A stretch of DNA of 60,412 nucleotides from Clostridiaceae bacterium. GTDB lineage: Bacteria; Bacillota; Clostridia; DSM-8532. The translations under genes were made by a program, and so were the position numbers. Within the stretch, counting starts at the first letter, position 1; each line of letters starts with the position of its first letter. Under the pieces are notes generated by a model. That model did no database searches, had not been told where the DNA came from, and saw only the letters and a program-made list of their open reading frames with translations. The stretch covers positions 1-60,412 of the forward strand of contig JAAYTP010000128.1 in assembly GCA_012518025.1 (NCBI GenBank). The letters are read 5' to 3'. Shown here piece after piece: positions 3,352-58,205 of this stretch.

Positions 3352-3412
3352 TAATACCAGAAGCTTAACAGACCTTTAAAGTACTTTTATTTGCAGTTAC
3401 AGGAGGCAAACC

Positions 3413-4018
3413 ATGCGCATATTAGCGGTATCCGATACCGAAAGTGAATACATCTGGGATCATTTTGACGAGTCAAGGTTTGAAGGGGTGGACCTTATGA
3501 TCTCATGCGGAGATCTGAAAAGCCAGTATCTGTCCTTCCTGATTACAATGATCAAGGCTCCCCTGTTCTATGTCCATGGCAACCACGATACAAACTATGT
3601 GGACAACGCTCCTGAGGGCTGCGACTGTATTGAGGACAAGATCGTCGAATATAAAGGAATCAGGATTATCGGTCTGGGAGGTAGCATGAAGTACAACAGC
3701 CATCCATACAACAGCGTTCCTCCCTGGCAGTATACTGAAAAACAAATGGCAAAACGAGTTCGGAAACTGGAGAGGAAGATTAAGGCATACAAGGGATTCG
3801 ACATCATGGTAACCCATGCACCGGCCTATGGTATCGCAGATGATGAGGATCTCTGTCACACAGGCTTTAAGTGTTTTGTACCCTTATTGGACAAATATCA
3901 GCCCCGGCTCATGATCCATGGCCACATGCACAGAAAATTCGGCAGGGCTCCGCGATCAATAAACTATAACGGCATAGAAGTGGTGGACGCATTCGGATAC
4001 CACCTCATGGACATATGA
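3413..4018 (+). CDS. Calcineurin-like metallophosphoesterase
   Basis: A cytosolic 201-residue protein of the calcineurin-like phosphoesterase fold. Visible metal and catalytic motifs are CGDL (32-35), GNHD (56-59), THAP (134-137) and GHMH (170-173). The first block, usually D-x-H, reads S-D-T-E, so its histidine is replaced by Glu. From memory, related clostridial proteins also start with SDEES, so this is probably a subfamily trait, not damage. An AGGAGG site lies 7 bases before the ATG. The substrate is unknown. The stop is only 3 bases from the stop of the convergent gene at 4022, so the two transcripts must overlap at their ends. Confidence 0.9.
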   Translation: MRILAVSDTESEYIWDHFDESRFEGVDLMISCGDLKSQYLSFLITMIKAPLFYVHGNHDTNYVDNAPEGCDCIEDKIVEYKGIRIIGLGGSMKYNSHPYNSVPPWQYTEKQMAKRVRKLERKIKAYKGFDIMVTHAPAYGIADDEDLCHTGFKCFVPLLDKYQPRLMIHGHMHRKFGRAPRSINYNGIEVVDAFGYHLMDI

Positions 4019-4021
4019 AGG

Positions 4022-5977
4022 TCATGAGCCCCCTATCCTTCCCGTTGAAAGATCAGCCAGAGGATCAAACCCCTTGGAATCCGGCATGCTGCAGACCACA
4101 CCTTCAATAATCCAATTCATCATCAGGATCTGAGGATGTTCAAGAATCTCGTCCTCTTCCAACATCAACCTTCCTTCCCTGTCACGGATGGGCCCTGTAA
4201 AGACCCTAAAACTGCGGGACATAATACCGCTCTTAAAAAATTCTATGAGCTTTTGCGTCTCAACTGGAATATGGTTTCTGGCATAGAAAAAATCCAAAAG
4301 ACCCGAATCCATGCCCCACCAATAATTGCGTACCCTGCCGGTGGAAGCTGAGTCATGACCCAGTCTGGTACCTCCCACCAGAATGCTCCTGATATACTTC
4401 TCATAAAAGATGCCCCAGTTCCAGACAGGCACAGCCAGATACTTTTCAGGAACAAAACAACCGCTTTCATCCTGCTTGATGGTATAAACCCCATACTCCC
4501 GGGAGAACTGTCTATTGGCCAGAGTATTGTGATGGCATATGATATCGGCGCCTTGCTGTGCTATTCTATTGGTACACTGAGGTGTTGCGCTGTTGTAGTC
4601 CCATGTCTGCATCCATTCAAGATAAACCTGGACATCGGGTCTTATCATCCGAGCTCCCAGAGTAAATGCATTTATCCCGCTGAGAACATCACTTACAGGG
4701 AAGGGGGCTATATACCCCAGCTTGCCTGTACGGGTCATCACACCTGCTACAAGACCACTTAAAAATCTGGGCTCATGAATCCTTCCGAAATAGGTGTTCA
4801 CATGTTTGAAGGAGTGCACGGCCGAGCAATTTAACAGGTTGACTTCAGGATTCTCCATGGCAACCTTTAAGGTAGCATTGATAAGGGATGGGCTGGTAGT
4901 GAAAATAATCCGGCAGCCCTCATCAAGCATTTTCTGGAGGGCAGGCGCAGCTTCAATACTCTCTGGCAGCCTGGTCACACTAACTGTTTCCACACTTTTA
5001 TTCAATACATGATCCAGATGCATCCTTCCAAGTTCATGGGAATAGACCCAGCTGGAAGATTTGGTGTCATTTACATGTGCAAATCCAACCTTCAGTTTTT
5101 CGCTTCGCATCCTATGGGTCAGCTTGCCAATAAAGCTGGATTCCTGTTTGAGGCTGGGAGTTTTTTGAACCTCAACGCCCCTACCACCCTTATGATACTC
5201 CATCTCAGAGATGAACCTCTTCATGATGGACTTAAGCTCAGCATCTGAAACCGAATCTCTGATTCCATGTATTTTGAGAAAGTCCAGGAAGGCATCCCCC
5301 GTGGTAATGGGAAGCCTGTCGCCCCCCAAATCATAGAATATCTTTCTAAAGACATTGTAAACAGCGCTCTTGAAATAGGTGAACCGATCCTCATCATTGA
5401 CCAGTCTGCTGGTAGGACGGTAGTCCTTTATTATTTCCCACAGTTCGGGAAAGCTGCCCTCTTTCGAAAACCATATCTCGTTTATGCCTGTCTTTTTATT
5501 AAAGTCCATGAACTCATAGTACAGGCGGATATCCTTGCTGTTTTCATCGTATTTTGGAATCAGGCGGGTGACATATCCATGATAGGAATAGTTGTCCAGA
5601 TACTTGAGCACACTCACCCTTTTATTGCCTTCCACAACATAGAACCAGTTGAGGTATTCGTAAACCTTTATGGGATCATTGAGACCCTCCAGGGTCTGTA
5701 TGTTATAAACATTCTGCCACTTCATGGCAAACTCAGTGTCCTCATCCATAAGGGGCATGAAGTTACGTGCAAAGGATATGCTCCTTAGATATGTATAGGT
5801 TCCGCGGATCTTTTTCAGCGGAATATCAACAATTCCCATGTCCACTTCGGACAGGATATCTATATTTTTCAGAACACCGTCCAAAAATGGCAGGTAGCCG
5901 TTGCGGCCCTGCGATATATAGTTGGAATACTCTTTAAGCCCTGATTTGCGGGCATTTATATAAGCAGATAAATCCAT
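4022..5977 (-). CDS. Cytosolic ParB-like/Bmp-type ligand-binding fusion protein
   Basis: A 651-residue protein with two recognisable parts. Around residues 50-127 there is a ParB/sulfiredoxin-like pattern: a DIPLKKI start, then DPIKVYEYLNWFYVVEGNKR, with VEGNKRVSVLKYL matching the G-(N/H)-x-R nucleotide-binding box of that fold. From about 294 to 600 it resembles Bmp/PnrA/Med nucleoside-binding proteins (KVGFAHVNDTKSSSW, then GRIHEPRFLSGLVAGVMTRTGKLGYIA). There is no signal peptide or lipobox, so it should be cytosolic, unlike transporter-linked Bmp lipoproteins. I start at the ATG at 5977, about 10 bases after AGGAG; the GTG at 5989 is too close to it. No transporter genes adjoin. Function unknown; a nucleoside-sensing or nucleotide-using regulator is a guess. 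Confidence 0.8.
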   Translation of the reverse strand: MDLSAYINARKSGLKEYSNYISQGRNGYLPFLDGVLKNIDILSEVDMGIVDIPLKKIRGTYTYLRSISFARNFMPLMDEDTEFAMKWQNVYNIQTLEGLNDPIKVYEYLNWFYVVEGNKRVSVLKYLDNYSYHGYVTRLIPKYDENSKDIRLYYEFMDFNKKTGINEIWFSKEGSFPELWEIIKDYRPTSRLVNDEDRFTYFKSAVYNVFRKIFYDLGGDRLPITTGDAFLDFLKIHGIRDSVSDAELKSIMKRFISEMEYHKGGRGVEVQKTPSLKQESSFIGKLTHRMRSEKLKVGFAHVNDTKSSSWVYSHELGRMHLDHVLNKSVETVSVTRLPESIEAAPALQKMLDEGCRIIFTTSPSLINATLKVAMENPEVNLLNCSAVHSFKHVNTYFGRIHEPRFLSGLVAGVMTRTGKLGYIAPFPVSDVLSGINAFTLGARMIRPDVQVYLEWMQTWDYNSATPQCTNRIAQQGADIICHHNTLANRQFSREYGVYTIKQDESGCFVPEKYLAVPVWNWGIFYEKYIRSILVGGTRLGHDSASTGRVRNYWWGMDSGLLDFFYARNHIPVETQKLIEFFKSGIMSRSFRVFTGPIRDREGRLMLEEDEILEHPQILMMNWIIEGVVCSMPDSKGFDPLADLSTGRIGGS

Positions 5978-6250
5978 AAAAGATTTCACTCCTCAAGGGT
6001 ATGCTCTCTTATATTTCCATTACATATGAGAACATCAGTTGTGAGTATCAACACTCAGGTCTTGTTGGTTAAATTTTACCAGAGGCATAAAGAAAATGAA
6101 AGGCTATGTGCTCATATCCTGCAACATAATGTAAGGTTATTCGGATCCCGCCCTCGGGCAATATGTTATAATTTTACTGGCGAGCGCCGACATTTTGATT
6201 AAATTTTATTTACTGTGGATTTATAGTGCTGAAAGGCGGAAAACGGGCAG

Positions 6251-6622
6251 ATGAGAAAGAAAAAGGGTATAATAAACAATAGACTTGCAGAAAACCTGCC
6301 TGCCGTCATCCAACCAAAAAGAAGAATGTGCATGAACTGTGTCAAGGGGCTGCCCGTAGGTATGAACAGCGACATCCTTTGCCGAGAGAAGGGTATCGTC
6401 ACCTGGGATTACTGCTGTTCAAACCATCGTTTTTTCTTCATGGAGGATCTCATGAAGATGGAGTTCTTCAGGTGTTCAAACTGCGAGTTCTTTACATTCC
6501 ATCCTCACCCCTACATCCCTTCCTACGGTGTCTGCAGCCTGTTCTCGGTCAGAAAATGCGACGGCAGCGTTAAAAAGGCTTGTTCCAAATTCGTTAAGAG
6601 AAGCAAAAGCGATGCATCATGA
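6251..6622 (+). CDS. Cys-rich protein with two similar Cys modules
   Basis: I do not recognise a named family. The 123-residue protein is basic at both ends and has 14 cysteines in two similar blocks. Block one: C-x2-C, 13 residues, C, 10 residues, CC (about 27-57). Block two: C-x2-C, 16 residues, C, 7 residues, C, 7 residues, C followed by SKF (about 76-114). Such spacing suggests two metal-binding knuckles. No signal peptide is visible, so it is probably cytosolic and reduced. The ribosome binding site is weak (AAAGGCGG). It is the only plus-strand gene between two minus-strand units. Confidence 0.65.
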   Translation: MRKKKGIINNRLAENLPAVIQPKRRMCMNCVKGLPVGMNSDILCREKGIVTWDYCCSNHRFFFMEDLMKMEFFRCSNCEFFTFHPHPYIPSYGVCSLFSVRKCDGSVKKACSKFVKRSKSDAS

Positions 6623-38341: not shown

Positions 38342-40777
38342 TTATTCCTTGTACTTGGCCGTTGTTTCGGCAAAATACCTGAGTTTTTTGTACACCCGGT
38401 CATTAACTGTGCCCTCGGGATAAGTCCCGTCGGATTTTTTCTCTCCGGCAGGAACACCGGTGAGGATCTCGATACCCTCATCAACCGTACTGACAGGATA
38501 GATATGAAACGTCCCTTCCTTTACGGCTTCCACCACATCGTCATTGAGCATCAGATTCTTGACATTCTGCACGGGAATTATCACTCCCTGCTCTCCGGTA
38601 AGGCCTTTTATCCTGCATATGTTGAAATAGCTCTGGATCTTAAAGGTTGCTCCCCCAATGGGCTGAATGATTCCAAGCTGGTTAACCGAACCTGTGACGG
38701 CAATGCCCTGATTGATGGGAAGATCAGCCAGGCTGGACAGAATGGCGTACAGTTCTGTTGAGGATGCACTGTCACCGTCAATTCCGCTGTAATTCTGCTC
38801 AAAGCAGATGCTGGCGGTAAGCGAAAGCGGAATATCCTGAGCATACTTTCTTCCTATATATCCGCTCAGAATCAGAACACCCTTGGAATGCGTATAGCCT
38901 CCAGTCTCCACTTCCCGTTCAATGTCTACAATGCCGGCCTTGCCCATGAAGGTGGCTGCCGTGATCCTAGCGGGTTTTCCAAAGGTATAATCCCCCATAT
39001 CAATGACGGCAAGGCCGTTGATCTGCCCTACCACCCAGCCGTCGGTATCTATCATGATGGTACCTTTACGGACAAGTTCCAGCAGTTGCTCGTCATATTT
39101 ACTGGAACGCTTCATTTTCTCACTTATAGCCCTTTTTACATGCTGGGCTGTAACAAGGTCTGAACTCTGGATCCTGGCCCAGGTCCCTGCCTCCCCAAGT
39201 ACATTGACAATCTCACTGAAGCGGGTAGTGAGTTTGCTCTGATCCTGCACCAGCCATGAGCAGTAGTTCACCACCTCAGCCACACCGCTCCTGTCAAAAT
39301 GGGGGATACCCTCCTTGTTACAGAAGGCGCTTATGTAGCGGGCGAGCTTTGCAATATTGACCTCATTCCAGTCCATTTGATCATCAAAATCTGCCTTGAT
39401 CTTGAAATATTTCTTAAAATCACGATCATAGTTGTAAAGAAGATGATAAAGCTCGCTGCTCCCTACCAATATGACTTTGACATTGATGGGAATGGGTTCG
39501 GGCTTTAGGGCTGAAACAGCAACCAGTCCCATCTGTTCCTTAATATTTTCGATGACGATCTGCCTGGTTTTCAGGGTTCTTTTAATGGCTGCAAAGGATT
39601 GGGGGTTGGACAGGACATCGTTTATCTGGAGGATCAAAAAGCCCCCGTTGGCCTGATGAAATAGCCCGGGCTTTATCATGGTATAATCTGTGGTCATGGT
39701 CCCGAATTCATTCTCATATTCGCATCTTCCCATCAGATTATAGTAGGTTGGGTTATAGTCTACTACAACTGGAGCTCCATGTAGATGGCTGTTGTCCACC
39801 AGAAGATTTACCTTGTAGCGGTGATAGGGGTTTTCTTCGCCCCCTCTTCTGGCCATCAACTGAAGGAGCATGGAGTGCTGATCATCTCCATAGTCAGTAC
39901 GCACAAAGGATTCTATGTTTTCCAGAATATCGCTTCTTACCGAGTTCAGGTATTCCACAACTGCCGGATATGGTTCGTATTTTTCTTTTAGGTCATCTAT
40001 ATGTATCCCAACGGCATAAAGGGCGATCTGGTTCTCCCACTTCTTGACGGCCTCCTCCGCATCTGATTCTATTTCCCGGATTTTTCTTATGATATCACCG
40101 GTCTGATCCTGGAGTTGTTCAGAAGATTTTGAAAGCTCGATCTTCACGTCCTCATCGAGAAGCTTAAACTCCTCCTCGCTTAAGGGCTCGCCATCCAACA
40201 GGGGCATGAAGTAGATGCCCGAGTTGGCCAGTTTGATGCGAAATCCACGCTCCTGTGCCTCCTGGCTCAACTTCATGACCAACTCGTCTTTTTTGTCACG
40301 GAACCTCTTCATGATACGGGATCTCTCAGCTTCATACTCATCGCCGTTGAAAGCCTTTATGATCTCCTGCTCGATAATCCTTACGAATTCTTCCATGTCT
40401 TTTTTAAACTCACGACCTATGCCGGCAGGAAGGTTTATAGCCCTGGGACGGTTGGAGTCATCGAAATTATAGACATAGCACCAATCATCGGGTACGGGCA
40501 TGACCCTTGCCTGTCTTTGGGCACATTCCAGTGCATAGCGGGTCTTCCCTTGCCCGGATTCACCAGCCATATAGATGTTATAGCCGTCAAGCTCTATGGC
40601 AAGGCCAAATTCGGTAGCCTCAACGGCCCTTTGCTGGCCAATCAGGTCTCTGGAAGGCGTAATCCCGCCGGTATTTTCAAAATCAAATAATGACGGATCG
40701 CATTCTCTTCGTAGCGCTGAAGCGGGAAGCGGTTTTACTGGCATAACATCACGTCCTTCCATACATTTCCTGCTCAT
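38342..40777 (-). CDS. LonB-like ATP-dependent protease (YcbZ-type)
   Basis: An 811-residue soluble AAA+ protease related to Lon but without the Lon N-terminal domain. The P-loop GESGQGKT is at 72-79; a long helical insertion (about 130-270) follows; the AAA region includes GLFHQANGGFLILQ. The C-terminal Lon protease domain has the catalytic Ser in DGDSASST and the Lys in IGGATFKIQ. Both ATG 40777 (after GAGG) and ATG 40744 (after GGAAGG) are plausible starts. A second Lon is encoded at 44.1 kb. No terminator is evident; degenerate repeats flank the gene. Confidence 0.9.
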   Translation of the reverse strand: MSRKCMEGRDVMPVKPLPASALRRECDPSLFDFENTGGITPSRDLIGQQRAVEATEFGLAIELDGYNIYMAGESGQGKTRYALECAQRQARVMPVPDDWCYVYNFDDSNRPRAINLPAGIGREFKKDMEEFVRIIEQEIIKAFNGDEYEAERSRIMKRFRDKKDELVMKLSQEAQERGFRIKLANSGIYFMPLLDGEPLSEEEFKLLDEDVKIELSKSSEQLQDQTGDIIRKIREIESDAEEAVKKWENQIALYAVGIHIDDLKEKYEPYPAVVEYLNSVRSDILENIESFVRTDYGDDQHSMLLQLMARRGGEENPYHRYKVNLLVDNSHLHGAPVVVDYNPTYYNLMGRCEYENEFGTMTTDYTMIKPGLFHQANGGFLILQINDVLSNPQSFAAIKRTLKTRQIVIENIKEQMGLVAVSALKPEPIPINVKVILVGSSELYHLLYNYDRDFKKYFKIKADFDDQMDWNEVNIAKLARYISAFCNKEGIPHFDRSGVAEVVNYCSWLVQDQSKLTTRFSEIVNVLGEAGTWARIQSSDLVTAQHVKRAISEKMKRSSKYDEQLLELVRKGTIMIDTDGWVVGQINGLAVIDMGDYTFGKPARITAATFMGKAGIVDIEREVETGGYTHSKGVLILSGYIGRKYAQDIPLSLTASICFEQNYSGIDGDSASSTELYAILSSLADLPINQGIAVTGSVNQLGIIQPIGGATFKIQSYFNICRIKGLTGEQGVIIPVQNVKNLMLNDDVVEAVKEGTFHIYPVSTVDEGIEILTGVPAGEKKSDGTYPEGTVNDRVYKKLRYFAETTAKYKE

Positions 40778-44058: not shown

Positions 44059-46476
44059 TCACTGTTCGATACTCACAGCGGCTTCATCAGCAGCCTGCGC
44101 CATGTCCACCATATTTGGCATCTTCTTCTCGGTAGGGTCTTCAGGCATGCGAACCAGTGCAAGTTTAAACACTTCATCCATGTGGGATACCGGAGTGAGT
44201 TTGATCGTCTGTCTGATATTCTCAGGTATCTCTTCAATATCCTTGACATTTTCCTTAGGCATCAGTACCTCATTCACACCGGCCCTGTGAGCAGCGAGCA
44301 CCTTCTCCTTCAGCCCGCCTATCGGCAGAACCCTGCCTCTCAATGTTATTTCACCGGTCATAGCCACATTCCTTCTTACAGGGATACCGGAGATCGCCGA
44401 CATCATAGCGGTTGCAAGTGTGATTCCGGCTGATGGGCCATCCTTGGGTATTGCGCCTTCAGGCACATGGATATGCATGTCAAAAATCTTATGGAAACCT
44501 GCATCGATTCCATAGTGATCTGCCACAGACCGGATATAGCTTCGGGCTATCCGGGCAGACTCCTTCATCACATCACCCAGTTGTCCCGTGAGTTCAAGCA
44601 TGCCCTCGCCAGGCATGATATTCACCTCGATTGCCATGGTGTCCCCTCCAACAGGAGTCCATGCCAGGCCGCGCACAATACCCACTTCATCAACCTCATT
44701 GGCTACATCATACAGATATTTCCTTCCGCCAAGGTAGTTCTTGATCGTCCTTGGGGTAATCCTGACCATCTTCCTTTCACCAGAGACCAGCAGTTTGGCT
44801 GCCTTTCTCATCACAGTTGCAATGTTTCGTTCCAGGTTTCTCACGCCGGCTTCACGGGTATAGTGCACTACAATCTCCCGAATGCCTGACTCATCAAAGC
44901 GAACCTTCGATCCGTCCAGACCATGGGCAGCCAGCTGCTTGGGTATTAAATGGCGGGATGCAATACACACCTTCTCATCCTCGGTGTACCCGGAAATATC
45001 AATGACCTCCATACGATCCAAAAGTGGCTGTGGGATGGCTTCCTTATAATTTGCCGTAGTGATGAACATCACATCGGACAGGTCAAAAGGCAACTCCAGA
45101 TAATGATCCCTGAAATCCTTGTTCTGCTCGGCGTCCAAGACCTCCAAAAGAGCAGATGCGGGGTCTCCCCGGAAATCACTTGACATCTTATCGATCTCAT
45201 CCATCAGGATCAGAGGGTTGCTGGAGCCTGCCTGCCGCAGGGCGTTTATGATACGTCCTGGCATGGATCCTACGTAGGTTCTTCTATGCCCACGTATTTC
45301 GGCTTCGTCCCTCACGCCTCCCAGCGACATCCTGGCGTAATTCCGGTTCAGTGACTCGGCAATGGATCTGGCAATTGAAGTCTTGCCAACCCCCGGAGGT
45401 CCCGCCAGGCAGATAATAGGACCGTGAAGCCCGTTCCGGAGCTTTCTGACAGAAAGATATTCCAGAATCCTTTCCTTTACCTTGGACAGACCATAATGAT
45501 CCCTGTCCAAAATCTCAGCGGCATACTGGAGATCAAGGCGTTCATCGGTCTTTTGGTTCCATGGAAGCTCAAGGATGGTATCCAGGTATGTCCTTATGAC
45601 CCCGCTCTCAGCCGATGTAGAATGCATGCGGGAGAGACGGTCCACTTCCTTCATGGCCTTATTTCTCACTTCTTCCGGAAGATCTGCCTTTATTATTCTT
45701 TCCCTGTATTCTTCCACTTCAGAAGACAGGCCTTCAGTTTCGCCCAATTCCCTCTGGATAGCCTTGAGCTGTTCCCTCAGGTAATATTCCCGCTGGTTTT
45801 TGTCAATCTGTTGCCTGACCTTGGTGCTTATGTTTTTCTCTATTTCAAGAATCTCATTTTCATGCACAAGTATGTCCAGGATCCTCTCAAGCCTCTTCTT
45901 GGGTGACAGTTCTTCAAGAATGCTCTGTTTGAGTTCAACGGCTATGGACAGATTGGATGCAATAATGTCCGGCAAACGGGTTAAATCGTCAATGGCGGTA
46001 ATTGAAAGAGTGGCATCCGGTGATATCTTGCCAGAGAGCTTGGCATACTGCTCAAAGTGCTCAACTACCTGCCTTGCCAGTGCCTCAACATCGGTCTTCC
46101 CGCTGCGTATGGAGTAGACCCTTACAGGCTTGATTTTTGCCATATAAAAAGGCTCGGTCTGAACCAGTTCGGAAAGCTTTGCCCGACCAATACCCTCAAC
46201 CAGTACTCTGATTGTATCTCCGGGAAGTCTCAAAAGCTGTTTGATCTTGGCTATGGTACCGTATGCGTATATATCTTCGGGCTCTGGATCCTCTATGTTT
46301 GGATCCCTCTGAGCCACAAGAAAAATTAGCTGCTCTTCCAACATGGATTCCTCAATCGCCTTGATTGATTTAATCCTGCCTACGTCGAAGTGCAGTATCA
46401 TATGGGGATAAACCACGATTCCTCTCAATGGAATAAGCGGCATATGTCTTGCATTTTTGTCTTTGACCTGTGCCAT
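44059..46476 (-). CDS. lon: ATP-dependent protease Lon (LonA)
   Basis: A cytosolic protease that degrades misfolded and regulatory proteins. The 805-residue chain has the LonA N-terminal domain ([20 protein letters not shown]), the AAA+ module with Walker [10 protein letters not shown] and Walker [11 protein letters not shown], and the protease domain with the Ser in [11 protein letters not shown] and the Lys in [10 protein letters not shown]. Own promoter upstream, terminator downstream, so it is a single-gene unit. Confidence 0.97.
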
Positions 46477-55023: not shown

Positions 55024-55779
55024 TCATCCCCAGTGCTTCATAAGATCCGTCATCCATTGAGCCACATCCACAGAATAGACTGCTTTGAGATTGTCACGGG
55101 TCAGCACCTGGCTGACCTTCCCCTGAGAATATACCCTTCCCTCATGCATTAGAAGAGCCCGGGTTCCATAGCAGAAGGCAGTATTGAGATCGTGTACCAC
55201 TGCCAGAACCGCTTTACCCCGGGCTTTTGACCATTTTTTAATGATATCAAACAGGGTTATCTGATACTTGATATCCAGATGGTTGGCCGGCTCGTCCAGA
55301 ATGAGAAGACCCGGATCCTGAGCCAAAAGCTGTGCCAGGTAAGCCCTCTGCAGTTCACCCCCTGAAAGGGTAAGCACCGATTGATCAGCCATATGATCCA
55401 TGCCTGTGATGGTAAGGGCTTCATCGATCTTGTCCCTGTCCTTTTGGCTGAGCATACCGAAAAGGCCCCGCATATGGGCATACCTTCCAAGGCTGACCAC
55501 CTCATAAACGGTATGAGGGAACCGGGGCTGATGCTCCTGAGCCAGCACCCCCACCAGGGAGGCCAGGGCTTTGGGTCTTATGGTGGAGATGTCGCGCCCG
55601 TTTAGAAGAACCCTGCCCTTATAGCTGTAAATACGCATGATGGCTTTAATCAATGTGCTTTTACCAGCGCCGTTAGGCCCTACCAACATAAAAAAGTCAT
55701 TCTCATCAACATGGAAGGTAACCCCATCCACTATGGTCTTATGATCTAAATGGACACTCATGTTCTGAATATCAAGCAT
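55024..55779 (-). CDS. btuD: ABC importer ATPase, probably for cobalamin
   Basis: A 251-residue ATPase of the FecE/BtuD group. Walker A GPNGAGKST (about 34-42), signature LSGGELQR, Walker B LLILDEPANHLD, and H-loop VVHDLNTA are all present. Substrate is inferred from the cobalamin riboswitch that precedes the operon; by sequence alone iron-siderophore import would be equally likely. It follows the permease gene by 52 bases. Confidence 0.88.
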   Translation of the reverse strand: MLDIQNMSVHLDHKTIVDGVTFHVDENDFFMLVGPNGAGKSTLIKAIMRIYSYKGRVLLNGRDISTIRPKALASLVGVLAQEHQPRFPHTVYEVVSLGRYAHMRGLFGMLSQKDRDKIDEALTITGMDHMADQSVLTLSGGELQRAYLAQLLAQDPGLLILDEPANHLDIKYQITLFDIIKKWSKARGKAVLAVVHDLNTAFCYGTRALLMHEGRVYSQGKVSQVLTRDNLKAVYSVDVAQWMTDLMKHWG

Positions 55780-55831
55780 GATGCCTCCCGGTTCAATTCT
55801 TATCTAATCTTTCGGGTCAGTTATCCCGAAT

Positions 55832-56899
55832 TTAATATTTTCTGGCTGACCGATTGTTGTATCGATAGAATATGACAATAAATATAACAGCACCCGTAAA
55901 AGAGGTTACAACGCCCACAGGAAACTCTTCCGGACTTAACAGTGTTCTCGACAGAAGATCGGTCAAAACCATGAATATCCCGCCCATGATCAGGGATGCG
56001 GGCAGCAGCTTTCTATGATCCGATCCCGTGATCATTCTGGTAATATGAGGTATCACAAGGCCCACGAATCCTATTGTGCCGCTTACAGATACCGACACTC
56101 CGATGAGGACAGCAGTCAGAACCAATAAGGCCATCTTGACGGTCTTTGTGTCCACCCCTATATAACGTGCCTGTTCCTCTCCGAGGGAAAAGGCATTAAG
56201 CTCCTTAGAAAAAGCAATTATTACAAGACTGCCAATCAGAAAGACAGGAGCCATCAGAATCACATGATTCCAGCCCTTTCCTGAAAATGATCCCATGGAC
56301 CAGAACACAACCTGCTTCAGGCTGTCACCTGACAGCACAACCAACAGGCTGGTGATGCTGCCCGCAAGCATGGAGAAGATTACACCAGTCAGGATAATGG
56401 TATTGGTAGAAAGACTGTTGTCTATCTTGTAAGTTAGTGTCAGGATGAATATCAGGGACAGGAAGGAAAAGGCGATACTGCTCAGGGTCAGTCCCAATTC
56501 AGGGAAAAAACTCAAGCGGATGCCCAGTACAATGGACAATACGGCGCCCAGGGCTCCACCCGAGGAGACACCAAGGGTGGAACCATCGGCCAGGGGATTT
56601 TTCAGAAGGCTTTGCATCACAGCCCCCGCCAGGGAAAGAGCGCCGCCGGTCATGGCAGCCAGCAGGACACGGGGCAATCGCACCATGGCTATGATGGTTT
56701 CGGTACCACTCTGTATTTCTGTCATATCCCCTTTCCCAAAAAGGTATTTGAGCAGTATATTCCAGGTATCGGAAAGTGATACCTGTACGCTGCCAAGGGA
56801 AACAGCTATGAACAGTACCCCTGCAAAGAGTATGACGCTGAGCGGGTAAATCCACAGACCCCATGTGCTTTCAGACAGTCTGCCTCCAGTGTCCGGCAC
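55832..56899 (-). CDS. btuC: ABC importer permease (FecCD/BtuC type), probably for cobalamin
   Basis: A 355-residue membrane protein with about ten hydrophobic segments. FecCD markers: GGALSLAGAVMQSLLKNPLA, then DGSTLGVSSGGALGA, and GTIGFVGLVIPHITRM near the C-terminus. It has a Ser/Gly-rich N-terminus before the first membrane segment. Only one permease gene is present, as expected for a homodimer. Confidence 0.88.
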   Translation of the reverse strand: MPDTGGRLSESTWGLWIYPLSVILFAGVLFIAVSLGSVQVSLSDTWNILLKYLFGKGDMTEIQSGTETIIAMVRLPRVLLAAMTGGALSLAGAVMQSLLKNPLADGSTLGVSSGGALGAVLSIVLGIRLSFFPELGLTLSSIAFSFLSLIFILTLTYKIDNSLSTNTIILTGVIFSMLAGSITSLLVVLSGDSLKQVVFWSMGSFSGKGWNHVILMAPVFLIGSLVIIAFSKELNAFSLGEEQARYIGVDTKTVKMALLVLTAVLIGVSVSVSGTIGFVGLVIPHITRMITGSDHRKLLPASLIMGGIFMVLTDLLSRTLLSPEEFPVGVVTSFTGAVIFIVIFYRYNNRSARKY

Positions 56900-56951
56900 C
56901 TGATCCTCCTCCTTTTATTGCATCCTCGGTTATCTGTATCAACCACATTGG

Positions 56952-57857
56952 CTAAAACGGCTCAACCATGGTTCTCATCAATTCCCTGGCGGCTTCTGTC
57001 AGCCTCGGTCCGGGCCTGCTCAACATGTCACCATCCAGCATATAAACCTGACCCTTCTTAACCGCGTTGATCTCCGCCCAGTTAGCCCGTCCGGTGATAT
57101 CTCCCACAGGGTCTTCAATTCCTGTCAACGGGCTTGCAGTGGTTATAATGATATCGGGATTTCTCTCAATCACCTGTTCTTCTGATACGGCACTCCAACC
57201 TGTTGTATCATCAAAAATATTCTTTGCGCCTATAATATCCAAAAGTTCCTGCACAAAGGTTTCCTGTCCGCAGGACCATAGCCCGTACTGCAGGGGGGAG
57301 ACCTCCACATACACACTTTTCTGAGATATTCCCCGGGCTTCTTCCTTCAGATCTTCGAAGCTTTCCTGCATGCTGCTTACCAGTTTGTCGGCTTCCTTGC
57401 TCTTGCCTATAGCCTGCCCGATTATTCTGATGATTTCATAGGTTTCATCAAGGCTGTTGGCCTCGGTAACGACCACCTTGATCCCCGCATCCTCCAGTTG
57501 CCCTAACTGGTCTTCCATGGCACCCATTTGGCTCAAAAAAACAACATCGGGATTCAGGGAGATCAAAGCCTCAATATTCAGCTTCTCTCCCGTGGGAAGC
57601 TTGTGTTTGTTCCCGGTGTCCTCAGGATAGTTGCAGTAATCACTGACAGCAGTAATCTGATCCCCCGCATCCAGGGCATAGAGTATTTCGGTGTTTGCCG
57701 GGCTCAGGGATACGATGGAGCGGGGCACAGAGTCAAAGATAACCTCAACCCCTCTGCTGTCCATAATACGGACTCCTTCGCCGGGAGATCCCGCGCCGCA
57801 GCCTGTAATAGCCAGGAGCAGCATAACGGTCATCAACAGGGATAGCATTCTCTTCAT
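56952..57857 (-). CDS. btuF: Substrate-binding lipoprotein, probably for cobalamin
   Basis: A 301-residue exported lipoprotein: basic start MKRM, hydrophobic stretch and lipobox LAITGC (Cys 20), then a FecB/BtuF-type bilobal fold (VPRSIVSLSPANTEILYALD, then ALISLNPDVVFLSQ). It would capture the substrate outside the membrane. ATG at 57857 or TTG at 57860 lie 10 or 7 bases after GGAGG. First gene of the riboswitch-controlled operon. Confidence 0.88.
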   Translation of the reverse strand: MKRMLSLLMTVMLLLAITGCGAGSPGEGVRIMDSRGVEVIFDSVPRSIVSLSPANTEILYALDAGDQITAVSDYCNYPEDTGNKHKLPTGEKLNIEALISLNPDVVFLSQMGAMEDQLGQLEDAGIKVVVTEANSLDETYEIIRIIGQAIGKSKEADKLVSSMQESFEDLKEEARGISQKSVYVEVSPLQYGLWSCGQETFVQELLDIIGAKNIFDDTTGWSAVSEEQVIERNPDIIITTASPLTGIEDPVGDITGRANWAEINAVKKGQVYMLDGDMLSRPGPRLTEAARELMRTMVEPF

Positions 57858-57924
57858 CAAAAAAACACCTCCAAAGATTTTAACTCTTCAAATAGGTGTC
57901 TCTTCAAGGTGATTCTGATTCCAA

Positions 57925-57950: not shown

Positions 57951-58018
57951 GCCGGATCATGTGTACAATCCAATCGACAAGCCTTCTACAGCTTGCTCTT
58001 TACCCAGAAGAAACCAAA

Positions 58019-58186
58019 CATGGCGGCAGGTCTACCGACTTCGCTTCATCCTCGAGCGGCGCCTTCCCAGATTATCAATCCAGTGGCATTCGCCGTCTTG
58101 TCAGCTTCACGGTTGCTGGGACAGTGCGGGATTTTCACCCGCTTCCCTCGATGCACATTGTGCAGGCATTTTCTTGCACCGTCATG
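58019..58186 (-). promoter_or_regulatory. Cobalamin riboswitch aptamer
   Basis: On the minus strand: P1 arms CATGACGG and CCGCCATG (one mismatch), the core GGGAAGCGGGTGAAAATCCC followed by ACTGTCCCAGCAACCGTGA, and the B12 box AGTCGGTAGACCTGCC at 58025-58040. All are hallmarks of class I cobalamin riboswitches. It lies ahead of the ABC importer operon. Confidence 0.93.
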
Positions 58187-58205
58187 CACTATTTGATTAT
58201 GTATG

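Follow-up and report, generated by a model that had tools for sequence, protein, structure and literature searches.

A cytosolic ParB/sulfiredoxin-like–Bmp fusion protein and its neighboring metallophosphoesterase: a candidate purine-responsive two-gene module in Clostridia

Bmp-type purine-binding domains are normally found outside the cell. ParB-fold domains were recognized as general NTP switches only recently, and to our knowledge the output is known for almost none of the fusion proteins that contain them. The ParB/sulfiredoxin (Srx) fold, Bmp domains and the cytosolic use of periplasmic-binding-protein folds are already known. The Bmp-type protein AtzT binds guanine at 110 nM, in a pocket formed by Y45, S97, E165, W194 and N220 (PMC6834077). 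ParB-fold domains in other fusions bind CTP, ATP or GTP, and this nucleotide specificity is not readable from sequence, as described in the main text of PMC12704722; neither a Bmp fusion nor a phosphoesterase partner is named in that main text. Literature searches for a Bmp-ParB fusion, DUF4032 or a ParB-like/metallophosphoesterase pair returned nothing relevant, and in the part of the literature that they covered no published description of the Bmp fusion, its phosphoesterase partner or its Fe-S-tailed relatives was found.

The window, that is, the whole stretch of 60,412 nucleotides analyzed here, contains such a fusion together with a convergent partner gene. The features of the two genes are as follows.

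3401–3406, plus strand: AGGAGG Shine-Dalgarno sequence of the metallophosphoesterase gene (from sequence)
3413–4018, plus strand: calcineurin-type metallophosphoesterase (MPE), 201 aa (PF00149 match)
4022–5977, minus strand: fusion gene, 651 aa (open reading frame with ATG at 5977 and stop ending at 4022)
4079–5110, minus strand: Bmp/AtzT-like substrate-binding domain, residues 290–633 (PF02608, likeness to AtzT)
5111–5182, minus strand: poorly ordered linker, residues 266–289 (low pLDDT)
5183–5551, minus strand: helical region, residues 143–265 (model; the equivalent in stand-alone relatives matches DUF4032, PF13224)
5552–5839, minus strand: ParB/Srx-fold domain, residues 47–142 (VIA-align matches)
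5618–5632, minus strand: EGNKR box, residues 116–120, corresponding to GxxR, the ParB P motif, and to Srx GCHR
5840–5977, minus strand: N-terminal extension, residues 1–46, with helices 4–22 and 32–36 (AlphaFold2 model)
5989–5994, minus strand: GAGGAG Shine-Dalgarno sequence of the fusion gene (from sequence)

The first-pass annotation had described 4022–5977 as a single reading frame of 651 residues joining a ParB/Srx-like N-terminal region to a Bmp-type C-terminal half, with no signal peptide and no adjacent transporter genes. The reading frame was confirmed on the minus strand, and so was the fusion itself. The ATG at 5977 is preferred over a GTG at 5989 because the GAGGAG Shine-Dalgarno sequence occupies 5989–5994. 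Pfam recognizes the Bmp domain alone, leaving the N-terminal 290 residues without a match. By Pfam matches and ORF reading, the window neighbors of the fusion are the MPE, homoserine dehydrogenase, HisI, HisE, rpoC and rpoB; no ABC transporter genes were found among them, so that this part of the annotation holds. The MPE gene, absent from that annotation, lies tail-to-tail with the fusion gene, with 3 bp between the two stop codons. On the other side, 6251–6622 (plus strand) encodes a 123-aa Cys-rich protein without any family over cutoff, which is conserved (cluster 8) close to the fusion at six related loci. An uncharacterized protein of about 163 aa (L033 cluster 7, MPRIYRIRYIPSETIDLSSD...) is encoded immediately upstream of the fusion at seven loci; it also adjoins the MPE in L172, a locus lacking the fusion, and it is not at the corresponding place in the window.

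The N-terminal domain (N-domain) gave no direct match to ParB above threshold in single-member sequence searches, and its fold was settled by structure. An AlphaFold2 model of the N-domain, for which the window protein and 66 relatives served as input, had a mean pLDDT of 89.9, falling below 50 from residue 266; in the model of the full fusion (pLDDT 88.6) the linker scored 61–68. A Foldseek search with the N-domain model retrieved Noc (four chains) and Arabidopsis sulfiredoxin at E ≤ 0.001. VIA-align of residues 47–142 gave Z scores of 8.5 with Noc (7ol9), 8.4 with Srx (6ky4) and 8.2 with ParB (7bnk) over about 80 residues, and a Z near 8 alone could reflect a common arrangement. The best 32 VIA-align rows were ParB, Noc, Srx, SerK, SbnI or related proteins. 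Independent sequence support joins these scores: the best match of the N-domain family profile in the PDB was sulfiredoxin (E 0.19), with EGNKR aligned to SGCHR; profile comparison placed the GNKR of the fusion on the GERR of the ParB AGERR box; and PF02195 weakly matched 2 of 28 family members (best E 0.008), with no match on the window fusion, which falls below the cutoff. For this reason the ParB/Srx fold assignment is considered right, and the fold search thus bore out the proposed nature of the N-terminal half. The GNKR box proposed for this half is likewise present, as G117-N-K-R120, and invariant in 67/67 aligned relatives. Sulfiredoxin activity is ruled out, because the invariant N118 stands at the position of the catalytic Cys of GCHR. 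For residues 143–265 no clear fold match was obtained, and the helical VIA-align rows in this region were judged to be chance matches.

The C-terminal half is a Bmp domain, as had been proposed. PF02608 matches residues 296–533 with 85.9 bits (cutoff 24.1), and the domain matches AtzT at the sequence level with E 1.6e-51. In the structural comparison the model scored Z 35.7 with AtzT and 35.3 with 3s99, versus 22–26 with the nucleoside-binding proteins PnrA, BmpD and Lbp; as modeled, the Bmp domain resembles the purine-nucleobase binders AtzT and 3s99 more than the nucleoside binders. The five AtzT pocket residues map to W310, S362, D430, W459 and N484 of the window protein. Across 77 fusion sequences W310 is invariant, position 459 is Lys in 36 and Trp in 24, and position 430 is Gly in 42. 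The divergence to Lys at 459 and Gly at 430 is seen mostly in Lachnospiraceae. Because the pocket is not conserved family-wide, the ligand may differ between clades; judged from the pocket residues, a purine ligand is plausible for the clade of the window protein and less certain in other clades.

Cytosolic location is indicated by the N-terminus. The maximal 19-residue hydropathy within the first 60 residues is 0.9 in the window fusion and at most 1.41 in 77 fusions, whereas all 19 true solute-binding relatives reach 2.0 or more, and 18 of these have a lipobox. No export signal was detected, and the absence of a signal peptide is therefore upheld. In a tree, from which one row (L249, a transport solute-binding protein in a wrong-frame ORF) was disregarded, the exported proteins form one supported group and the fusions fall outside it, except for a single long-branch Petrotoga fusion of uncertain place.

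The fusion architecture is conserved. A search of 293 genomes of the class with a profile of the N-domain alone gave 33 full-length matches in 31 genomes, all of them ORFs of 621–681 aa carrying both the N-domain and the Bmp half. A scan of named genomes found at least 587 relatives; among the best 80 are members of Clostridiaceae, Lachnospiraceae, Thermotogota (Marinitoga, Petrotoga) and Spirochaetota. Two genomes carry, in addition to the usual pair, a diverged second fusion copy without an adjacent phosphoesterase (L174, G223:C30; L175, G268:C52).

When gene neighbors were surveyed in other Clostridia and the remaining related loci, the MPE proved to be the constant neighbor: it adjoins the fusion or lies within 0.9 kb, on either strand, in 73/80 loci (69 identified by ORF clustering and four by tblastn). 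Three of the other seven loci end at a contig edge, and the other four (L034, L041, L045, L059) have an MPE elsewhere in the genome. Among the 293 class genomes, the MPE is present in 30 of the 31 fusion genomes and the fusion in 30 of the 32 MPE genomes (Fisher's p = 2e-37, shared ancestry not corrected for). The sole fusion genome without an MPE (G064) has its fusion at a contig end, and one relative from the window's own family (G167) has kept the MPE and lost the fusion. Of 29 fusion-MPE pairs on the same contig, 15 are convergent and 14 same-strand. About half of the pairs can therefore have no shared transcript, and an adjacency kept through reorientation of the genes suggests that the pair is under selection. 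Beyond the MPE no constant further neighbors were found, the others being lineage-specific housekeeping genes, and no constant purine operon accompanies the pair. At the gathering threshold, neither the window nor 11 related loci showed a purine or other riboswitch near the pair; the matches were limited to a T-box leader and an unrelated cobalamin riboswitch. The cobalamin riboswitch (58008–58198, minus strand, 95.1 bits) lies upstream of a Peripla_BP_2/FecCD/ABC ATPase set at 55024–57860, likely a B12 uptake operon. The window also encodes two different Lon-type proteases within 6 kb (38342–40777 and 44059–46476, both minus strand), one LonB-like and one classical Lon.

The MPE itself matches PF00149 with 45.4 bits (cutoff 21.5), and no relative of solved structure was found by sequence at E 0.1. 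The GD, GNH, H and GHxH motifs are present (D34, N57, H58, H135, H171 and H173), and D8, D34, N57, H58, H135, H149, H171 and H173 are invariant in 85/85 members. None of the 85 has the motif I His (DxH); the window MPE reads D8-x-E10. By these residues, one metal ligand is altered and the active site otherwise appears complete. The window MPE (3413–4018, plus strand) also matches the PADLOC candidate defense model PDC-S10 with 58.6 bits.

Searching the phylum's other classes with the N-domain profile gave stand-alone ORFs of about 310–400 aa that have no Bmp domain. Ten of these lie directly beside an MPE of the same family (192–239 bits), and two further pairs (G425, G554) were found starting from the MPE. 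Among 19 MPE genomes of the phylum sample, three have the fusion and 12 an adjacent stand-alone ParB-like gene; a ParB-only gene lies elsewhere in three (G327, G597, G577), and none was found in G312. The N-domains of the fusions matched a profile of the stand-alone proteins in 67/67 cases at E<1e-3, compared with 0/670 shuffled sequences. The box reads DG[NH]HR in the stand-alone relatives and EGNKR in all fusions, the His being replaced by Lys. Several stand-alone relatives end in a 2x[4Fe-4S] ferredoxin-like tail and others in a degenerate Cys tail. In one of them (L210), Fer4 scored 49.7 bits and the helical part matched DUF4032 (PF13224) with 28.2 bits (cutoff 23.8), the only case over that cutoff; a DUF4032 search of 196 class genomes gave 0 matches, so that this model does not see the fusions. 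Clostridia, Thermotogota and Spirochaetota have Bmp as the C-terminal module; other Bacillota have a ferredoxin-like tail or lack such a module. Since the stand-alone relatives adjoin the same MPE and the fusion N-domains match them, the constant unit is the ParB-like protein plus the MPE, with Bmp being one of several C-terminal modules. An adenine deaminase gene is followed by the MPE in one genome (G577, L219) and another lies near the MPE in G312 (L218), which again hints at a connection with purines. In four loci (L209–L211, L221) the MPE and the Fe-S-tailed ParB-like protein are followed by a Sir2 gene and then by an endonuclease/exonuclease/phosphatase-like gene, a family confirmed by Pfam in L211 only.

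How might such a pair work? Overall, the data suggest that two genes form a hitherto undescribed module for reading a purine signal, present in Clostridia and in some other bacteria. We tentatively favor, at somewhat below even confidence, the reading that the fusion acts in the cytosol as a nucleotide switch that responds to a ligand and works with the neighboring MPE. In this reading a purine nucleobase, which in this clade would be of the guanine or adenine type, would make the Bmp domain close. Such closure would change how the ParB/Srx-like domain binds or hydrolyzes NTP or transfers phosphate, and the resulting state of that domain would turn the MPE on or off, or set how much of its substrate is present. 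The MPE is taken as the likely output, being the component that stays the same throughout. That C-terminal modules are swapped while core and partner stay constant favors a division into input, switch and output roles. The first-pass annotation had envisaged that sensing of a nucleotide or nucleoside would be coupled to catalysis or to an activity related to DNA. Such a coupling is plausible; the catalytic link is most likely the neighboring phosphoesterase, and no link to DNA binding was found. Doubtful as it stands, a more general version may be considered, in which a ParB/Srx-fold NTP switch and a dedicated MPE with an altered metal site would be the constant core of an undescribed bacterial signaling module, and exchangeable C-terminal sensors (purine-binding Bmp, ferredoxin-like Fe-S) would act through the switch to control how a phosphorylated small molecule or nucleic-acid end is turned over. 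The fusion offers both a clear candidate input, a purine pocket for which a related structure is solved, and an equally clear candidate output, a phosphoesterase found with it in nearly all cases, which makes the role of orphan ParB-fold switches directly testable with two purified proteins.

The main rival is a kinase-phosphatase pair, because SerK shares the fold and weakly matches the stand-alone relatives. Here the N-domain would be a SerK-like small-molecule kinase, Bmp would hold or sense a purine-type substrate, and the MPE would remove the phosphate from, or cleave, the product. SerK and SbnI belong to the same fold group as the N-domain, two stand-alone relatives match the SerK NCBIfam model at E ~1e-4, and an opposing phosphoesterase would make sense as a partner. 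However, that match amounts to 21 bits versus a cutoff of 380, the fusion gave no match to the model, and the His of DGxHR is lost in every fusion (EGNKR), which speaks against plain SerK chemistry. A ferredoxin tail would also be an odd substrate-binding module, and CTPases and switches come from the same fold (main text of PMC12704722). We consider this reading rather unlikely.

A DNA-binding regulator, in which the cytosolic purine-binding domain governs a ParB-like DNA clamp as in PurR/LacI, appears improbable. Cytosolic periplasmic-binding-protein folds do serve as LacI/PurR effector domains (Z ~14 to the Bmp domain), and ParB and Noc are DNA clamps, but the structural match to ParB/Noc ends at residue 142, before their helix-turn-helix domain, with no clear fold match for the helical residues 143–265 that follow, the genome has two ordinary ParB-family genes elsewhere (PF02195 over cutoff; C33, C71), and the MPE would be left unexplained. 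An anti-phage defense or toxin-antitoxin pair is more improbable still: although the PDC-S10 match and the occurrence in defense of two-gene pairs with exchangeable sensors favor it, the pair is stable within families and has housekeeping genes (rpoBC and his) as its neighbors in the window, the PADLOC matches of the fusion are at noise level only, and a scan of viral contigs with six N-domain patterns gave three pattern matches and no relative. Finally, the convergence of the two genes in the window, which are hence not one operon there, would allow for chance neighbors, a chromosomal Bmp-like relic beside an unrelated phosphoesterase; adjacency across three phyla and in both orientations, near-perfect co-occurrence, and the same adjacency repeated by the stand-alone relatives in other classes make this hardly credible.

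How does the pair compare with known systems? The C-terminal fold of the fusion is the same as that of AtzT and Brucella 3s99 (Z 35), and five pocket positions match or resemble those of AtzT. Unlike these proteins, the fusion has no signal peptide or transporter genes and carries its Bmp domain behind a ParB/Srx-like domain, and its pocket diverges in the Lachnospiraceae members. With the ParB-CTPase-fold fusions described in the main text of PMC12704722, it shares the ParB/Srx fold, the GxxR box and a lineage-specific fused domain, and it is likewise an orphan not associated with ParA. The model behind that survey is PF02195, which misses the N-domain at its cutoff; Pfam-based surveys of the fold would therefore miss this domain. 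SerK and SbnI, free serine kinases, share the fold, and the stand-alone relatives show weak similarity to the SerK profile, whereas the fusions have Lys for the His of DGxHR, fall far below the SerK cutoff and have other C-terminal parts. The likeness to DUF4032 proteins (PF13224) is confined to the helical part of the stand-alone partner in L210, and the fusions miss that model. LacI/PurR and Med (2hqb, Bacillus halodurans) also use a periplasmic-binding-protein fold as sensor, cytosolic in LacI/PurR, but the fusion has a ParB/Srx domain in place of the helix-turn-helix and, in addition, an MPE partner. The MPE shares the PF00149 family, and the invariant D34, N57-H58, H135, H171 and H173, with YfcE-like calcineurin metallophosphoesterases, from which it differs by the missing motif I His in all 85 members and by its constant ParB-like partner.
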